Position numbers and translations under genes: made by a program. From assembly GCF_907163105.1 (NCBI RefSeq), contig NZ_OU015321.1, positions 2,247,001 through 2,311,000 of the forward strand: a stretch of 64,000 nt of DNA, in the 5' to 3' direction. Under the pieces are notes generated by a model, which searched no databases, was not told the origin of the DNA, and saw nothing but the letters and a program-made list of their open reading frames with translations. Numbering within the stretch: position 1 is the first letter of the stretch; every line of letters starts with the position of its first letter. This DNA comes from Cloacibacterium caeni (GTDB lineage: Bacteria; Bacteroidota; Bacteroidia; Flavobacteriales; Weeksellaceae). This document shows, one piece after another, positions 31,161 to 38,891 of the stretch.

Positions 31161-31231
31161 ACGATTCAGTTTCTATTTTTTACGATTCAGTAAAACTTAT
31201 TTCCTTTCAGAAATGAGCAGAGATACCTTTG
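31161..31231 (+). promoter_or_regulatory. LytTR-type direct repeat plus -7 element, site 1
   Basis: Two copies of ACGATTCAGT at 31161-31170 and 31182-31191 (starts 21 bp apart), then TACCTTTG at 31224-31231, 42 bp after the second start. It lies upstream of the TonB-dependent receptor gene. The same spacing recurs in sites 2 and 3. No -33 TTTG is present, which fits an activator-dependent promoter. Confidence 0.75.
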
Positions 31232-31250: not shown

Positions 31251-33467
31251 ATGAAAACTCGTATTTTTACATTACTCTTTACCTTTGCCTTTACCTTTAC
31301 CTTAATTGCTCAAATTACCATTTCTGGAAAAGTTTTAGGAAGAAATAACAAACCGCTGAAAGATGTTTCTGTGACGCTGAAAGATACTTATGATGGCGCA
31401 ACAACAGACGAAACAGGGAATTATAAATTTGAAACTTCTGAAAAAGGAAGCCAAACATTGATTTTCTCTCACCCTAAATTTATAGAAATTGAAAAATCTA
31501 TTCAAATTGAAGACAAAAACCTTATTCTAAATGCTGAACTAAAAGAATCGGTGAGCGAAATAGATGCAGTAGTCATTTCTGCGGGAAGCATAGAAGCCAG
31601 CGATAAAAAACGAGCCACTACTCTATTGACACCAATTGATGTCTACACAACAGCTGGAGCAAATGGTCAAATTTCATCGGCACTGGAAACCTTACCTGGA
31701 GTTCAAAAAGTAGGAGAATCAGAAGGTCTTTTCGTGAGAGGAGGAACCGGAACGGAAACCAAATTCTTCATGGACGGAAATTTGGTGAACAATTATTTCG
31801 GAAATTCTGTACCCGGAATTAAAGCGATGGATAGATTGAATACTTCACTTTTTAAAGGAAATGTATTTTCGAGTGGTGGTTATTCTGCAGTTTACGGACA
31901 AGCATTATCTGGAGTTTTAGCTTTGGAAAGTATCGATTTACCAGAGAGAAATGCTGCAGATTTTGGGATTTCTCCCATTTTTGCAAGCGGCGGAATTCAA
32001 CGAGTTAATCAAGAAAAAACACATTCTTACGGAATTTCTTTAGGCTATTCTAATCTAGAACTCATGCAGAAAATTCTGAAATTCAATACCGATTTCGAAA
32101 AAGCACCTAACAGTTTTGGTGGCAATGGTAATTTCAGAATTAAAACTTCAAGAGGCGGTTTTATCAAATATTACGGAAGTTATGATACCAGTTCGATGAA
32201 GCTTTCTTCTCCCAATTTAGACGACGAAACTTCTTCTGATAAAATCAATCAAAACGGGAAAAATACGTTTCACTCGCTTTCTTACCGAGAAAAATTTGGC
32301 AGATATACTTTGAATCTTGGAAGTTCATATACTTTTAACCAAAATATTCTTCATTTTTCTAATGTAGACCAAAACGGAAGTTCTCCATTCAATAATGACA
32401 TAGATTCTAAAGGCAATTATTTCAACGCCAAAGCATTGATTGAGAGAAAATTATTTAAAATTTCGGCAATAAGAGCAGGAATAGAACTGAATACAACTAA
32501 AGAAGAAACTTGGGTTTCCATCGCTCAAAAAAATTATGAATTTAGAGATGATATCACATCTCTTTTCGCAGAAACTGATTTGGGAATCAGCAATGATTTA
32601 TCTTTAAAAATAGGAGCAAGAGCAGAAAACTCTTCTTCTATCAACCACTGGAATTTTTCGCCAAGATTTGCCATGGCTTACAGAATTTCTAAAGAATGGA
32701 CGAGTTCATTGGCTTACGGAACTTTCTTCCAAAATCCTGAAAGTAGATTTTTCACCGAAAATTATCAACCCAATTATCAAAGAGCTGACCATTATATTTT
32801 TCAAGTTCAAAGAGCAGCAGATGGTAGAAGTTTGAGATTGGAAACGTATTACAAAAAATATCAAGATTTAATAAAAACCACAACAGATTTTTACAGACCT
32901 ATCGCCGTGAATAACAACGGAAGTGGCTATGCAAAAGGTGTAGAATTATTTTGGCGAGATAAAAAATCTTTGAAAAATATAGATTATTGGGTGTCTTATT
33001 CTTACCTAGATTCTAAAAGAGATTACCTGAATTACACCGAAAGTCTATTCCCCAATTTCGCGGCAAAACATACACTTTCTGTGGTGGCTAAAAAATTTGT
33101 AACCAATTGGAAAACAGGATTTAATATTTCTTACAATTACAATTCTGGAAGACCATATTACAATTTCGTGACCGAAAATGGCAATACTGTTCTCAAAAAT
33201 CAAGGCTTTGTAAAAGATTATCAAGCGGTGAATTTCAGTCTTAATTATTTACCGAATTTAGGCAAAAAAGATGCGAGAGCTTTCACCGTTTTGGTGCTTT
33301 CTATCAATAACGTTCTAGGAACTAAAAATGAATTTGGATACAATTTTTCGAGCAATGGATTAAAATCTAGAGCCATCGTTCCTCCTAACAATACTTTTGT
33401 TTTCATCGGTGCATTCATCAGTTTCGGGACTGACAGAACTCAAGAAGTCATTAATAATAACTTGTAG
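31251..33467 (+). CDS. TonB-dependent outer membrane receptor with carboxypeptidase-like domain
   Basis: A 738-residue receptor with a signal peptide ending near LIAQ. A carboxypeptidase D regulatory-like domain (about 22-95, ISGKVLGRNNKPLKDVSVTL) is followed by a plug (VGESEGLFVRGGTGTETKFFMDG) and a C-terminal barrel ending in VFIGAFISFG. No SusD-like partner is adjacent, so a glycan role is not indicated; the ligand is unknown. The promoter carries the LytTR-type repeat pair. Candidate target of the LytTR regulator at 36863. Confidence 0.92.
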   Translation: MKTRIFTLLFTFAFTFTLIAQITISGKVLGRNNKPLKDVSVTLKDTYDGATTDETGNYKFETSEKGSQTLIFSHPKFIEIEKSIQIEDKNLILNAELKESVSEIDAVVISAGSIEASDKKRATTLLTPIDVYTTAGANGQISSALETLPGVQKVGESEGLFVRGGTGTETKFFMDGNLVNNYFGNSVPGIKAMDRLNTSLFKGNVFSSGGYSAVYGQALSGVLALESIDLPERNAADFGISPIFASGGIQRVNQEKTHSYGISLGYSNLELMQKILKFNTDFEKAPNSFGGNGNFRIKTSRGGFIKYYGSYDTSSMKLSSPNLDDETSSDKINQNGKNTFHSLSYREKFGRYTLNLGSSYTFNQNILHFSNVDQNGSSPFNNDIDSKGNYFNAKALIERKLFKISAIRAGIELNTTKEETWVSIAQKNYEFRDDITSLFAETDLGISNDLSLKIGARAENSSSINHWNFSPRFAMAYRISKEWTSSLAYGTFFQNPESRFFTENYQPNYQRADHYIFQVQRAADGRSLRLETYYKKYQDLIKTTTDFYRPIAVNNNGSGYAKGVELFWRDKKSLKNIDYWVSYSYLDSKRDYLNYTESLFPNFAAKHTLSVVAKKFVTNWKTGFNISYNYNSGRPYYNFVTENGNTVLKNQGFVKDYQAVNFSLNYLPNLGKKDARAFTVLVLSINNVLGTKNEFGYNFSSNGLKSRAIVPPNNTFVFIGAFISFGTDRTQEVINNNL

Positions 33468-33493
33468 AATTAAGTCCAAAATTGACAATGAAA

Positions 33494-33564
33494 ACCATTC
33501 AGTCAAGAAAAACTACAGTTCGGTGAACTAAAATTTCAAGAAAATTTCTTTCAAAATATCTTTG
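33494..33564 (+). promoter_or_regulatory. LytTR-type direct repeat plus -7 element, site 2
   Basis: ACCATTCAGT at 33494-33503 and ACAGTTCGGT at 33515-33524 (21 bp apart), then TATCTTTG at 33557-33564, 42 bp after the second start. It lies upstream of the TPR-like gene. Confidence 0.75.
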
Positions 33565-33599
33565 AACCATAAAATTGAAACAACTAAAAAATATTACAT

Positions 33600-34256
33600 A
33601 TGAAAACTTTACAAAAAACAATTTTAGCACTTTCTTTCGCATTTACAACAAGTTACACTTTTGCCCAAACTGCTTACGAAAAAGCCATGATGCCGAAAGT
33701 TCAAACCATCGAAATGCCAAAATCTAATCCAGATGAAAACACTGCTCAAGCCAATGATTTTGCAAGAATTGGAGACAAAGAAAAAACACTTTGGCAACCG
33801 TATTATTATGCTGCTTTTTCTATTCTAAAAAAAGGAAGAACATTGATGCAACAAAACCAAATTGCACAACTAGACGAAGTCGCAAAAGAGGCTCAAAATT
33901 ACATTGACAAAGCAGAAGCGCTTTCTCCGAATAATGCAGAAATCTATATTTTGAAAAAAATGAATCACGGACTTAAAATGATGGTAAATCCTATGGAAAG
34001 ATGGCAAACTGAAGGCCAAGCTGCTCAAAATGCTCTTGCTGAAGCTAAAAAATTAGACCCAGAAAATCCTAGAATTACGATTATGGAAGCCGAAGATTTA
34101 TATTTCACTCCAGAACAATTCGGCGGAAGCAAAACGAAAGGAATTGAACTTTTTAAGAAAGCTTTAGAACAATTCAAAACTTACAAAATAAAATCTTCTC
34201 TTGACCCAAATTGGGGACAAGGTGAAGCGAATTATTTTATAGCTCAAACGAAATAG
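33600..34256 (+). CDS. Exported TPR-like protein
   Basis: A 218-residue protein with a signal peptide ending at YTFAQ (about 22-23 residues). The mature part is helical and has TPR-like stretches: AQNYIDKAEALSPNNAEIYILKKM (about 100-123) and ALAEAKKLDPENPRITIMEAEDLYF. It is likely periplasmic. No family with known function was recognised. It shares its promoter architecture with the receptor upstream and the 2TM operon downstream, so it probably works with them. Terminator at 34275. Confidence 0.7.
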   Translation: MKTLQKTILALSFAFTTSYTFAQTAYEKAMMPKVQTIEMPKSNPDENTAQANDFARIGDKEKTLWQPYYYAAFSILKKGRTLMQQNQIAQLDEVAKEAQNYIDKAEALSPNNAEIYILKKMNHGLKMMVNPMERWQTEGQAAQNALAEAKKLDPENPRITIMEAEDLYFTPEQFGGSKTKGIELFKKALEQFKTYKIKSSLDPNWGQGEANYFIAQTK

Positions 34257-34345: not shown

Positions 34346-34416
34346 ACAATTCAGTATACAAAAATGACGGTTCAGTCAAATAAAATTTGAAAGCGCCTCT
34401 TATAAAACTACCTTTA
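34346..34416 (+). promoter_or_regulatory. LytTR-type direct repeat plus promoter, site 3
   Basis: ACAATTCAGT at 34346-34355 and ACGGTTCAGT at 34367-34376 (21 bp apart), then TACCTTTA at 34409-34416, 42 bp after the second start. TTTG at 34386-34389 lies 19 bp before the -7 element. This promoter drives the operon that encodes the regulator, so it implies autoregulation. Confidence 0.75.
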
Positions 34417-34469: not shown

Positions 34470-34763
34470 ATGGAAACGTACAAAACAACACAAGAACAGA
34501 AACTAGAAAACGCTAGAAAGCACGTGAAAAGAATCAAGGGTTTTTACACGCATGCTTTGGTTTTCGTATTGGTAAACGTATTTATTATTTTCTCTAATGC
34601 GATTGTAGACGGAAAAGGTTTTAATGATATTGATAATTATTACACGGCTTTTTTCTGGGGTTTCGGCTTATTGGCTCATGGTTTATCGGTTTTTGGTGGT
34701 GAGCTGTTTTTAGGCAGAAACTGGGAAGAAAGAAAAATCCAAGAAATTTTAAACGAAAAATAA
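34470..34763 (+). CDS. 2TM-domain protein 1
   Basis: A 97-residue protein with the 2TM domain: an N-terminal basic motif ARKHVKRIKGFYTHAL, two hydrophobic helices (about 30-48 and 60-80) and a C-terminal NWEERKIQEILNEK. It is the first gene of an operon with a LytS kinase, two further 2TM proteins and a LytTR regulator. Both termini are predicted cytoplasmic. The function of 2TM domains is not known; their steady linkage to LytS/LytTR suggests a sensory or scaffolding role. Confidence 0.85.
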   Translation: METYKTTQEQKLENARKHVKRIKGFYTHALVFVLVNVFIIFSNAIVDGKGFNDIDNYYTAFFWGFGLLAHGLSVFGGELFLGRNWEERKIQEILNEK

Positions 34764-34786
34764 TTTTAAAATATTATTTTTAGAAA

Positions 34787-36130
34787 ATGAAACTCGAGGT
34801 AATCAAAAAAGCGGCTCTTAACCTACTCTACATCAATATTATTGTAAGTCTTTTTATCTTCTTAATTGATCCAGGAGAAAAAACATTCGAAAGATACTCT
34901 TTTACTTTCCTAATTTCTGGAATGTACACGTTTTTCATAGGTTTAGGAAACGGTTTTTTAAACGATTATCTAGATTCTAAATTCTCGTGGACAGATGAAA
35001 CGCGCAAAAGAACCATCGCTGCGATTGTAGGAACTTTGGTGATGAATATCGCACTGGTATATTTCTGTAATTACTTGAATTTCATAGTTATACAAGGCAA
35101 AAATCCAGAAAAATTTTTCAGTGGAGAGATGAACTTCATCAATTGGTTTTTCATCAATTTTGCGATTATGATATCGGCAATTGGTCACGCTCGAGGTTTT
35201 ATGGCGGCTTGGAAAAACTCTACCAAAAAAGAAGTAGTAGAACAAAAACTCATCGCCAAATCTGCCAATGCACAATTCGAAAGCTTAAAAAATCAATTAG
35301 ACCCGCATTTTTTATTCAATTCTCTGAATGTTTTAGACTCTTTAATTGAGGAAAATCCTGTTCAAGCGCAACGTTTTACCAATTCTATGTCGAAAATTTA
35401 TCGCTATGTTTTGGAACAAAAAGACAAGGAACTGGTTTCGGTGGAAGAAGAAATAGACTTTGCCAAAACCTATTGCGAACTGCTGAAAACCAGATTTGAA
35501 GATGCTGTAACCTTTGATTTCAACATTTCAGAGGAAGACAAAAAAGGTTTTGTAGTGCCACTTTCTCTGCAACTTTTGCTCGAAAATTCGATTAAACACA
35601 ATTTTGCCACTTCATCTAAACCATTGAATATCAAAATATTTACAGAAAAAGGAAACCTCATCATCGAAAATAATCTGCAAACCAGAGAATTGCCCAATAA
35701 ATCTACAGGCGTAGGTTTAGCAAACATTGTTTCGAGATATAATTTATTAACCGAAAGGAATGTCTTCGTAGAAAAATCTGAAGCTTTCTTCCGTGTGAAA
35801 CTCCCTATTTTAAAAGAAAAATTGAACCCTATGAATCCATATACTCCATCACAAGAACAATTGGCTTACGAAAAAGCCGCAAAACGCGTAGAAGAACTCA
35901 AAGGTTTCTACGGAAACTTAATTTCTTACTGCATTTTTATACCATTTTTAATTTTTATCAACTTCCAAACTTCGCCTAAATATCATTGGTTTTGGTGGCC
36001 AATGTTAGGTTGGGGAATCGGTGTAATTTCTCACGGAATTAAGACTTTCGGTATCGGAACAGATTGGGAAGAACGCCAAATCAAAAAATACATGGAAAAA
36101 GAAGAAGAAAACGCTAGAAAATGGAAATAA
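34787..36130 (+). CDS. LytS-type sensor histidine kinase fused to a 2TM domain
   Basis: 447 residues. About four N-terminal helices (10-150) form the membrane sensor. The His_kinase region has FESLKNQLDPHFLFNSLNVL, with the phospho-acceptor His near residue 176, and the ATPase region contains LQLLLENSIKHNF and STGVGLANIVSRY. An extra C-terminal domain (about 350-447) repeats the 2TM layout (AAKRVEELKGFY to DWEERQIKKYMEKE). The fusion physically ties the 2TM proteins to the kinase. The cognate regulator is the LytTR protein at 36863 in the same operon. Confidence 0.9.
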   Translation: MKLEVIKKAALNLLYINIIVSLFIFLIDPGEKTFERYSFTFLISGMYTFFIGLGNGFLNDYLDSKFSWTDETRKRTIAAIVGTLVMNIALVYFCNYLNFIVIQGKNPEKFFSGEMNFINWFFINFAIMISAIGHARGFMAAWKNSTKKEVVEQKLIAKSANAQFESLKNQLDPHFLFNSLNVLDSLIEENPVQAQRFTNSMSKIYRYVLEQKDKELVSVEEEIDFAKTYCELLKTRFEDAVTFDFNISEEDKKGFVVPLSLQLLLENSIKHNFATSSKPLNIKIFTEKGNLIIENNLQTRELPNKSTGVGLANIVSRYNLLTERNVFVEKSEAFFRVKLPILKEKLNPMNPYTPSQEQLAYEKAAKRVEELKGFYGNLISYCIFIPFLIFINFQTSPKYHWFWWPMLGWGIGVISHGIKTFGIGTDWEERQIKKYMEKEEENARKWK

Positions 36131-36132
36131 CT

Positions 36133-36429
36133 ATGGGAAATCAAGATAAATTCAACGAAATTGCTTACAAAAAGGCACAAAAAAGAGTAAAAGACATCAG
36201 AACGTATTATTACATGGTTTTGGGATATTTAGCAGTGGGTTATTTCATTGTTAGCCGAAATTATGACGGGAATCTTCTTAATATTTCTAGAAATTACAGC
36301 GTTTGGATTGTAATCTTGTGGGGAATTTTTCTTTTGGGTTACGGAATTTATTTATTCACGCCTTATTTCAGAAATTGGGAAGAAAGAAAAACCAAAGAAT
36401 TAATGGAGAAATACAAACAAAAAAATTAA
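36133..36429 (+). CDS. 2TM-domain protein 2
   Basis: About 98 residues from the ATG at 36133, 2 bp after the kinase stop; an alternative ATG at 36121 overlaps the kinase gene. It has AQKRVKDIRTYYYMVL, two helices and NWEERKTKELMEKYK. It is the most divergent of the four domains in the first helix. Translation is probably coupled to that of the kinase. Confidence 0.8.
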   Translation: MGNQDKFNEIAYKKAQKRVKDIRTYYYMVLGYLAVGYFIVSRNYDGNLLNISRNYSVWIVILWGIFLLGYGIYLFTPYFRNWEERKTKELMEKYKQKN

Positions 36430-36432
36430 AAA

Positions 36433-36744
36433 ATGGAACCTATAAACGATAAAAATATTCAATACGAAAGAGCCAGAAAAAGGGTTAAAGAAATCAAAGG
36501 TTTCTATATTCACGCTTTGGTTTATGTTTTGGTCAACTTGTTTTTAATTCTGTCTACATCCATAAAATATGATTCTTTTGAAACGTTTTTCCAGCAGAAT
36601 CAATTCTGGGGAATTGGACTTTGGGGAATTGGACTTTTTGCGCATGGTTTATCCGTTTTCTTGCCTAATTTTATCCTCGGAAAAAACTGGGAAGAAAAGA
36701 AAATTCGTGAATTGATGGAAAGAAATAGAAATTTGAAAATATGA
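36433..36744 (+). CDS. 2TM-domain protein 3
   Basis: A 103-residue protein with ARKRVKEIKGFYIHAL, two helices with a longer loop (SFETFFQQNQ), and NWEEKKIRELMERN. It is most like 2TM protein 1. It starts 3 bp after the previous gene and is part of the same operon. The 118-bp gap to the regulator contains an interspersed ATTCCG/GAATGAC repeat (about 36789-36826). Confidence 0.85.
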   Translation: MEPINDKNIQYERARKRVKEIKGFYIHALVYVLVNLFLILSTSIKYDSFETFFQQNQFWGIGLWGIGLFAHGLSVFLPNFILGKNWEEKKIRELMERNRNLKI

Positions 36745-36862
36745 AAAATGAGCTAATTTGGAGATGAAATTATTCTTAAAAATAGATTCTTCATTCCGTT
36801 TCACTTCACTCAGAATGACATTAGAAACCCTAAACTTTTACCTTGAACTTTGAATTGAAAAT

Positions 36863-37603
36863 ATGAAAGTAGTAATTATAGAAGACGAAAAACCAGCCGC
36901 TAGAAAACTCGAAAGATTAATAAGCAATTTTACTGATTTACAATTGGTTGCAACGCTCCATTCTGTGGAAGACGCTGTAGATTGGTTCAGTAAAAATGAA
37001 CATCCTAAACTGATATTTTCAGATATTGTTTTGGGCGATGGTTTGTCTTTTGATATTTTTGAAAAAGTTCCTACCAAAAGTTTCATTATTTACACCACCG
37101 CTTTTGATCAATACACGTTGAAAGCCTTCAAACTCAATTCCATAGATTATCTTCTCAAGCCAATTTCAGAAGAAGATTTAGCCAAAGCAATTGAAAAATT
37201 CAAAAGTTTTTTGCCTTCAGAAGAAACGCACAATGCTTTGGAAATGAAATCATTAATCAAAGAAGATCAACCGAAATTGTCTAGAATTTTGGTTAAAATT
37301 GGATATAATTTGAAGGTCATCAAAACTGAAGAAATTTGCTGTTTTTATTCTGAAAACAAAATTGTTTACGCACAGACTTTAGAACGCAGTTTCCCAACAG
37401 ATTTTACCTTAGATGAATTGGAAGAAGTTTTGGATGAAAAAACGTTTTTCCGTGTGAATAGACAGTTTATCATCAGTTCAGATTGTATCAAAAACATTCA
37501 TACTTCACCGAATTACAAAGTAGAATTGCAAGCGCAACCTGCCGAGGAAATTACGGTAAGTAGAGAACGTGTGAAAGATTTTAAAGATTGGCTGGTGAAA
37601 TAA
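36863..37603 (+). CDS. LytTR-family response regulator
   Basis: A 246-residue regulator. The receiver domain (1-120) has acidic residues EDE at 7-9, the phospho-acceptor Asp54 in LIFSDIVLGDG and the Lys in YLLKPI. The C-terminal LytTR domain (about 140-246) has GYNLKVIKTEEICCFYSENKIVYA and FFRVNRQFIIS. LytTR domains bind pairs of direct repeats on one face of DNA, two turns apart. Exactly such repeats occur at three promoters nearby, including that of its own operon. It is separated from 2TM protein 3 by 118 bp with no clear promoter. Confidence 0.93.
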   Translation: MKVVIIEDEKPAARKLERLISNFTDLQLVATLHSVEDAVDWFSKNEHPKLIFSDIVLGDGLSFDIFEKVPTKSFIIYTTAFDQYTLKAFKLNSIDYLLKPISEEDLAKAIEKFKSFLPSEETHNALEMKSLIKEDQPKLSRILVKIGYNLKVIKTEEICCFYSENKIVYAQTLERSFPTDFTLDELEEVLDEKTFFRVNRQFIISSDCIKNIHTSPNYKVELQAQPAEEITVSRERVKDFKDWLVK

Positions 37604-37622
37604 TGTTAATCATTTCAGTTTT

Positions 37623-37685
37623 GTCTTTCCGTAGGAATCTAAACATGAATATTAAATAGTTTAGTAGAGATTCCTACGGAATGAC
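37623..37685. repeat. Large palindromic repeat / bidirectional terminator
   Basis: Arms TTCCGTAGGAATCT (37627-37640) and AGATTCCTACGGAA (37668-37681) pair perfectly over 14 bp, flanked by GTCT and TGAC. It sits between converging genes (LytTR regulator and mnmA). Related ATTCCG...GAATGAC words at 36789-36826 suggest an interspersed family. Confidence 0.8.
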
Positions 37686-37703
37686 AAAGTTTATGTATTT
37701 AAT

Positions 37704-38891
37704 TTAAGAAATCACTCCGCTTCCTAATAATTCTTCGCCTACATACCAAGCTGCGAACTGTCCTTCTGCAATAGCAGATTGTGGATTTTCGAATTCTATG
37801 AAAAATCCTTCTTCAAACTGATAAAGCGTGGCTTTTTCTAGCGGTTGACGGTATCTAATTCTCGCCAAAACTTCCATAGATTCTCCGTTTTTAAGGCGTA
37901 AATCTTCACGAACCCAATGCAATTCTGAATTGTCAATTTTCAAAGCTTTTCTAAATAATCCTGGGAAATTTCTTCCTTCACCTACATACACTAAATTATT
38001 TTCCATATCTCTGGAAATGAGGAAACAAGATTCTTTATGACCGCCAATTCCGAGACCTTTACTTTGACCAATCGTGTAGAATTGTGCACCTTGATGTTTG
38101 CCAATTACTTTTCCGTCTGATTTTTTGTAATGGATTTTTGCAGACAAATATTCTAACTCTTCCAGTTTTGAAGAAAATTCAGGTTTTTCTTTATGATATT
38201 CAGCAAAATCACTGAAAATTTCTACAATTTCACCTTCTTTGGCTTTTAATTGTTGCTGAAGAAAAGTCGGCAAACTTACTTTCCCGATGAAACAAAGACC
38301 TTGAGAATCTTTTTTATCAGCAGTTGCCAGTTCCATTTCTCTGGCAATTTCTCTTACTTCTGGTTTGGTGAGTTCACCAATTGGGAAAAGTGCTTTAGAA
38401 AGCTGTTTTTGACTCAATTGACACAAGAAATAACTTTGATCTTTGTTGTTATCTTTCCCTGCCAAAAGTTGATATACTTCTTCCCCATTTTCATTGGTAA
38501 AAGAATCTAATCTTGCGTAATGTCCTGTTGCAACTTTATCTGCACCTAGTGAAAGTGCGGTTTCTAGAAAAACATCGAATTTTACTTCTCGGTTGCACAA
38601 AACATCAGGATTGGGAGTTCTACCCTTTTCGTATTCGGCAAACATATAATCTACAATGCGTTCTTTGTAGAGTTCGCTCATATCAATCACTTGGAACGGA
38701 ATTCCCAGTTTTTTAGCCACTAAAAGCGCATCATTACTGTCTTCAATCCAAGGACATTCATCTTCTAAAGTTACCGAAGCATCGTTCCAATTTCTCATAA
38801 AAAGTCCGATGACTTCGTGACCTTGTTTCTGCAACAAATATGCTGCAACGCTGGAGTCTACACCTCCTGATAAACCGACTACTATTTTCAT
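37704..38891 (-). CDS. mnmA: tRNA-specific 2-thiouridylase MnmA
   Basis: A 395-residue enzyme that thiolates U34 of the Lys, Glu and Gln tRNAs. The PP-loop [14 protein letters not shown] is at 5-18. The catalytic cysteine lies in [13 protein letters not shown] and the second in GLCFIGK. The C-terminal barrel carries the insertion common in Bacteroidetes (about 215-255). Length is within the family range. -7 element TAATTTTG (minus) about 40 bp upstream. Confidence 0.95.

Follow-up and report, generated by a model that had tools for sequence, protein, structure and literature searches.

We describe a locus in a 64,000-nt stretch of the Cloacibacterium caeni genome (contig NZ_OU015321.1, positions 2,247,001 to 2,311,000; called the window below), in which a LytS-type histidine kinase with a C-terminal 2TM domain lies among three genes for stand-alone 2TM proteins, followed by a LytTR response regulator gene. 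A TonB-dependent receptor gene and a gene of the HusA family precede this array. We propose, with modest confidence, that these two encode a HusBA-like uptake pair run by the 2TM-tailed LytS/LytTR system, and that the free 2TM proteins serve as feedback partners of the kinase tail. Tail and free proteins go together: all 46 tailed kinases found among the sampled genomes of the phylum are accompanied by free copies, and none of the 13 HusA loci with a tail-less kinase has a 2TM gene.

The outer-membrane pair would consist of the TonB-dependent receptor and a secreted HusA-family protein of the porphyrin-binding kind. A LytS/LytTR system would control it, the kinase of which has acquired a 2TM hairpin at its C-terminus. 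The active regulator is predicted to bind three direct repeats of 21-bp period and thereby to activate three units: the receptor gene, the HusA-family gene and the operon, which comprises the 2TM genes, the kinase gene and probably that of the regulator. By this scheme the free 2TM proteins would be products of their own regulon, made when the regulator is active. In the membrane they may pair with the kinase tail, hairpin to hairpin, and this pairing would set the kinase output as a feedback device, either damping or sustaining it.

The 2TM array and its spread

The original prediction had placed four 2TM domains here, three in stand-alone proteins and one at the kinase C-terminus, and the array is as it was drawn. 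The open reading frames (ORFs) lie in the places given, and PF13239 (2TM) was matched in all four copies with 90.6, 103.4, 49.2 and 89.0 bits (Pfam cut-off 24.8). Stand-alone proteins are encoded at 34470..34763 and 36433..36744, both with His/His at two helix positions discussed below according to the profile alignment, and at 36121..36429, a divergent member (49.2 bits) with Met/Tyr at these positions. All features described here are on the + strand. The kinase gene (34787..36130) matched PF06580 (His_kinase) with 86.1 bits, and its tail, which is of the Asn/His type, covers residues 362-437 (35870..36097). A genome-wide profile search recovered exactly these four PF13239 domains in the whole 2.7-Mb genome, so that chance clustering is not an issue. 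Two sequence motifs had been ascribed to every copy, which held only in part. The motif A(R/K)xxVKxIKxFY is found at 34470 (ARKHVKRIKGFY) and 36433 (ARKRVKEIKGFY) and fails in the kinase tail (AAKRVEELKGFY) and at 36121 (AQKRVKDIRTYY). The strict form of NWEERKxxExM occurs only at 36121, the other copies reading NWEERKIQEIL, DWEERQIKKYM and NWEEKKIRELM. The span first singled out, 34470-37603, also omits the receptor and HusA-family genes (31251-34256) of the same predicted regulon.

Residues H174, N267 and G310 of the kinase (conserved His, N box and G box) are invariant in 59 aligned rows, and the modelled kinase core fold-matches that of the GanS kinase. The regulator (36863..37603) has Response_reg and LytTR domains in the Pfam scan; its receiver is intact, and the phospho-acceptor D54 is kept in 121 of 122 aligned regulators. 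By sequence, the two proteins form a LytS/LytTR two-component pair in kinase, receiver and LytTR domain, for which phosphotransfer and DNA binding are predicted. With BtsS/BtsR and YpdA/YpdB of Escherichia coli they share the PF06580 kinase, the receiver-LytTR regulator, promoter-proximal direct repeats and, for the window by prediction, the control of uptake proteins. Unlike in these systems, the kinase of the window ends in a 2TM tail, its operon includes 2TM genes, and the predicted targets are a TonB receptor and a HusA-family protein.

For the survey, 395 genomes of the phylum were drawn, of which 92 have a 2TM domain. Neighbourhoods were fetched for most of them, and the neighbouring genes were classed by profiles built in this analysis. 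The window's family (f1) and its sister family (f2) make up 49 of the 92 genomes. Left out among the 2TM matches were G238, G007, G261, G369 and the second copies of G190 and G158. The ORF caller gave no 2TM gene in 6 of the 99 loci L034-L133 longer than 1 kb (L084, L085, L092, L117, L131 and L133), of which L084 and L085 share the dihydrofolate reductase (DHFR) setting described below.

The fusion of kinase and 2TM domain is genuine. The tail is in frame, and it is not an assembly artefact since the same full-length fusion is present in 46 of the 395 genomes; a Cloacibacterium normanense contig matches the window kinase with 98% identity. Searching all genomes with a tailed-kinase profile gave 565-710 bits for the 46 tailed kinases, with alignments reaching the end of the tail, and at most 366 bits for non-tailed matches, which mostly aligned only to position ~345-380. 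The C-terminal position of the tail was also seen in 80 named loci, a biased set that had been retrieved with the kinase as query; both sets together gave 124/124. Because the tailed kinase occurs in 46 of the 49 sampled 2TM-bearing f1/f2 genomes, the kinase-2TM cluster is old. Close to the tailed kinase, a regulator gene was found in 45/46, a receptor gene in 31/46 and a HusA-family gene in 36/46 cases. Stand-alone array-type 2TM genes are present in all 46 genomes and at the same locus in 45; in G304 the free copies and the regulator lie on another contig than the tailed kinase. The number of free domains per tailed-kinase locus was one in 6, two in 10, three in 19, four in 7, five in 3 and none in 1 (G304). 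An ICMT/PEMT-type membrane methyltransferase gene lies among the array 2TM genes at L035:7615-8184 (identified by Pfam) and in L036-L039, L041 and L042.

Outside f1 and f2, 41 2TM loci were fetched and the 2TM gene was recovered in 37. Of these 37, 2 (L089 and L126) had a LytS-type kinase at a distance of no more than 4 kb, and only in L089 as an operon. This is the situation that the original prediction had itself named as speaking against it. Thus the link of 2TM to LytS/LytTR genes does not hold as a family-wide rule, and use of 2TM as a general marker of LytS/LytTR loci is ruled out by the phylum survey. In L089 the 2TM protein, a tail-less kinase and a LytTR protein are encoded by three genes in a row behind an operator-like site, which is an unfused state. 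In the f2 locus L086 (6407-7324) the 2TM domain (residues 20-105) is fused to DHFR (DHFR_1, residues 145-303). The claim that the kinase fusion places the small 2TM proteins in the same signalling complex is consequently to be narrowed: it agrees with the co-occurrence in f1 and f2 and finds no backing outside them. The fusion alone is no proof of one complex, because 2TM domains elsewhere are mostly unlinked, are fused to DHFR or accompany a kinase-free receptor-HusA pair.

Some further 2TM settings were observed. Fused-looking 2TM-DHFR genes of similar length and place occur in L095, L097 and L099, the Pfam scan having covered L086 alone. In other f2 genomes a separate 2TM gene immediately precedes the DHFR gene, with thymidylate synthase close by. 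At L091:6126-8486, a 786-aa protein has an N-terminal 2TM domain and no further Pfam match.

A phased operator and its predicted regulon

Upstream of 31251, 33600 and 34470 the window carries a direct repeat of two 10-nt ACRRTTCRGT boxes with an 11-nt spacer, giving a 21-bp period. The repeat search placed three operators of LytTR type: operator 1, ACGATTCAGT-N11-ACGATTCAGT, at 31161..31191 before the receptor gene, operator 2, ACCATTCAGT-N11-ACAGTTCGGT, at 33494..33524 before the HusA-family gene and operator 3, ACAATTCAGT-N11-ACGGTTCAGT, at 34346..34376 before the 2TM-kinase operon. Counting the spacing, each is followed after 32 bp by a promoter box: TAnnTTTG (-7 type) at 31224..31231, TATCTTTG at 33557..33564, and TACCTTTA, with one mismatch to the -7 box, at 34409..34416. 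These are the only 21-bp pairs in the window, and the exact form is found nowhere else in the genome. An operator with a phased promoter box before the 2TM-kinase operon, the receptor and the HusA-family gene is new here.

The arrangement recurs in other genomes. Across 179 loci, counting only scores of at least 17 of 20, 168 ACRRTTCRGT pairs had a 21-bp spacing, and no other spacing between 12 and 33 was seen more than 18 times. TAnnTTTG stood exactly 32 or 33 bp downstream of 109 of the 160 distinct sites, with ~0.1 expected per position. The box length, the spacing and the place agree with published LytTR sites. As far as the available text of the two sources goes, the direct repeats of a LytTR site measure 9-11 nt, lie 11-13 nt apart and precede the target promoter (PMC4847170); in LytTR-type operons of Bacteroides both the repeats and the gap between them are 11 bp long, and another 11 bp separate them from a promoter that ends in TATCTTTG (PMC6193735).

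A search of 148 genomes of the order for the exact operator gave 16 sites in 8 genomes, and one site with the reversed control. The 16 sites precede genes for kinase-2TM (4), 2TM (3), receptor (4), a HusA-family protein (1) and a secreted alpha/beta hydrolase (4). In genus g4 the receptor and hydrolase genes are far from the kinase and yet carry the operator, which argues for a trans-acting regulon and not for a local repeat. DUF2141 genes in f2 loci carry it as well. A looser search for operator plus promoter box returned 56 loci, of which 30 belong to the known classes, 10 lie within ORFs and 16 are others; one of the in-ORF sites (L285) belongs to a hydrolase with an over-long ORF. In L349, L350 and L359, which come from tail-less lineages, and in L342 an operator-like site is found ~60 bp before the receptor gene.

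Two further groups of sites were seen. Secreted alpha/beta hydrolase genes with the operator lie far from the kinase locus in L253, L254, L256 and L263, that of L256 adjoining a phosphatidylserine decarboxylase gene. Five f2 genomes (L296, L297, L302, L312 and L318) have an operator-like site and -7 box before a gene for a membrane-anchored protein of 340-350 aa, all of one family.

The layout of the window operon resembles that of the LytTR Regulatory Systems (LRS), in which, according to the available text of PMC6193735, a LytTR protein and a membrane inhibitor are autoregulated via direct repeats just before the promoter. Shared features are the autoregulated LytTR operon with membrane proteins and the phased direct repeats. 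Like the LRS inhibitors, the 2TM proteins might then restrain the LytTR regulator by acting on it directly at the membrane. We regard this as highly improbable. An LRS as described there works without a kinase, whereas the receiver of the regulator here has kept its phospho-acceptor and the cognate kinase its catalytic residues; such a true two-component pair falls outside what defines an LRS.

Inspection by eye revealed a long imperfect palindrome at 37612-37692, between the regulator gene and the convergent gene 37704-38891. A stretch near 36790-36830 inside the operon partly resembles it.

The receptor-HusA pair and its predicted regulators

The gene at 31251..33467 encodes a TonB-dependent receptor with a CarboxypepD_reg N-terminus (Pfam) and stands directly upstream of the HusA-family gene, which the locus survey marks as the HusB-like position. 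A sequence comparison of the receptor with solved structures gave no match at E 0.001, which excludes nothing. The following gene (33600..34256) encodes a secreted helical protein of 218 aa that has no match in Pfam or NCBIfam. Its structure model had a predicted local distance difference test (pLDDT) score of 91.4 and a predicted template modelling (pTM) score of 0.85. The best Foldseek match was HusA of Porphyromonas gingivalis (6bqs, E 3.8e-10), the next chain having 1.7e-3. Structural alignment to HusA gave Z 23.2 with rmsd 3.3 over 192 aligned residues (next Z 15.6), and the family profile matched PG_2227 with E 1.6e-41. By model and profile, the protein belongs to the HusA family.

HusA has a hydrophobic groove that binds haem and other porphyrins, which it presumably passes on to the receptor HusB; joint change of its residues L123, V124, W130 and Y164 left minimal binding (both from the available text of PMC6173696). 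The window protein has M/V/W/F at these positions, and its f1 relatives have aromatic residues at 130 and 164 nearly throughout. A porphyrin is a fair guess for its ligand. The locus shares with HusA/HusB the HusA fold and sequence family and the TonB-dependent receptor gene directly upstream. It differs in the partly changed groove residues, in the added LytTR operator and 2TM kinase, and in a receptor that is HusB-like by position only. HaeSR of P. gingivalis was considered as the same system and rejected; the available text of PMC3764172 compares its kinase with VicK, YycG and PhoR and leaves LytTR unmentioned.

HusA-family genes were found in 107 of the 395 genomes. Among 32 further HusA-family loci a receptor gene is present in 30, a LytS-type kinase in 13 and a C38 plus an HTH_34 winged-helix gene in 7, kinase and C38/HTH_34 genes never occurring together; a 2TM gene was found in none of the 32 fetched stretches. 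Eight of the tail-less kinases align to the window kinase with 34-52% identity and end at residues 342-346, just before the tail. Since the same pair elsewhere adjoins HTH_34 proteins or kinases without a tail, both the receptor-HusA pair and the LytS/LytTR design are older, and the 2TM tail was added later, in f1/f2. C38 is a family of ~200 aa without Pfam match, which mostly comes with an HTH_34 protein and is seen in L332-L336, L339, L341, L127 and L121.

Among genomes without an operon like that of L089, the two best-scoring tail-less kinases are those of G355 and G002, and neither genome has array-type 2TM genes. We do not claim that tail and free genes were lost twice. IQ-TREE nested both kinases among the tailed ones, as a first tree without G355 had done for G002, and FastTree placed G355 outside. 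A single tailed clade was not rejected in the approximately unbiased (AU) test (p 0.208), which was run without six distant kinases and without near-duplicate tailed rows (above 93% alike). In Flavobacterium johnsoniae, 5/5 coevolved lines were mutated in an adjacent LytTR/kinase pair, according to the available text of PMC10197871; the neighbouring locus numbers given there leave no room for 2TM genes in between.

Two kinds of 2TM domain and the proposed role of the free copies

The 2TM domains of the arrays fall into two kinds. Positions 20 and 59 of the profile alignment lie at the start of helix 1 and in helix 2, respectively. Of 130 free array copies, 69 have His/His there and 26 have Asn/His; of 46 kinase tails, 42 have Asn/His, 3 Ser/Gln and 1 His/His. 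In a FastTree phylogeny, 57 free copies, mostly His/His, formed one clade (support 0.846) with members in 46 of 47 array loci; the kinase tails (44/46) grouped in one clade with Asn/His free copies. The tree was computed from 89 alignment columns, and its deep branches are weak. Since one stand-alone clade has members in 46/47 array loci, the free copies are not debris. In our reading of these sequences, one free 2TM lineage has been kept in every array and tail-type free copies arose beside it. The free proteins are most simply the partner of the tail because they are homologous to this kinase domain, are predicted to be made under its control and are kept in every array.

The histidines raise the thought of haem. 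Under this idea the hairpin would be an intramembrane porphyrin (haem) responsive element with a full site in free copies and a half-site in the tail, and ligand-dependent pairing would report porphyrin to the kinase. We consider this very unlikely. Haem ligation by the His pair was rejected as the principal explanation, for the same positions also hold His/Asp, Ser/Gln and Asn/His, and the DHFR-linked copies, which are His/His in 9/9, speak against it too. With such variable residues a plain polar helix-helix contact fits equally well. HrrS/ChrS of Corynebacterium, membrane-embedded kinases in haem homeostasis, offer a possible parallel only (available text of PMC5812335).

Several observations count against a feedback role for the free copies under a porphyrin uptake system. 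The operator motif was built from the window's own three sites, the surveyed genomes are partly close relatives, so that counts are not independent events, and the structure model of the fused kinase (pTM 0.44) is too uncertain between domains to give information on an interface. In f2 the groove of the HusA-family protein has Gly at position 130 in 26/28 and at position 164 in 28/28 rows. With groove residues only partly kept, the ligand may differ in f2, for which a porphyrin is a weaker guess than for the window. The 13 receptor-HusA loci with a LytS-type kinase and no 2TM gene make 2TM an add-on that is inessential to that design. In L086 a 2TM domain is fused to DHFR instead, and three loci (L121, L127 and L128) combine a receptor-HusA pair with 2TM and no kinase.

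These last three loci bear on the strongest rival explanation, by which the free 2TM proteins take part in uptake itself, as an inner-membrane helper of the receptor-HusA pair. They would leave the kinase unaffected, and its tail would only bring it to them. In L121 the 2TM gene lies between the receptor and HusA-family genes; in L127 and L128 it immediately precedes the receptor gene, with gaps of 27-37 bp. All three loci have C38/HTH_34-type genes in place of the kinase. The L121 receptor and HusA-family protein are 44% and 36% identical to those of the window, closer than those of f2, and the array 2TM genes are within the predicted regulon, as would suit a helper. However, 30/30 receptor-bearing loci among the 32 further HusA-family loci have no 2TM gene in the fetched stretch, and this explanation gives no reason why the kinase should constantly carry a tail in 46 genomes. 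We judge it unlikely.

Alternatively, 2TM may be a general membrane anchor or dimer-forming hairpin without specific partner, whose presence on the kinase is incidental. The fusion to DHFR, the 786-aa protein of L091 and the mostly unlinked 2TM genes outside f1/f2 would fit such a hairpin. A plain anchor would not, however, predict the strict co-occurrence of tail and free copies, the free lineage in 46/47 loci or the co-regulation, and the kinase is already provided with a membrane part at its N-terminus. An incidental anchor thus seems distinctly unlikely. Our preference remains with free 2TM proteins that act as feedback partners of the tail. We know of no homology between MgrB and 2TM. The likeness to MgrB-PhoQ is that of a regulon-made small membrane protein acting on a kinase, which for the window is proposed (available text of PMC10576120); in contrast to MgrB-PhoQ, the window hairpin is also fused to the kinase.

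In the open-licence literature we found no paper naming PF13239 or treating a link between 2TM and kinases. To our knowledge no function has been assigned to PF13239. The locus gives the 2TM family a defined setting: the operator and promoter can be predicted, the 2TM domains are of two kinds, tail-less relatives provide natural controls, and there is a likely cargo class. It further yields a prediction on the regulation of HusA-type uptake outside Porphyromonas. One uptake pair is found with three regulatory designs: a plain LytS/LytTR system, a 2TM-tailed LytS/LytTR system and an HTH_34 protein with a membrane partner. Should free hairpins tune the kinase, the locus would exemplify a type of small-protein feedback by a modulator with the same origin as one domain of its target kinase.

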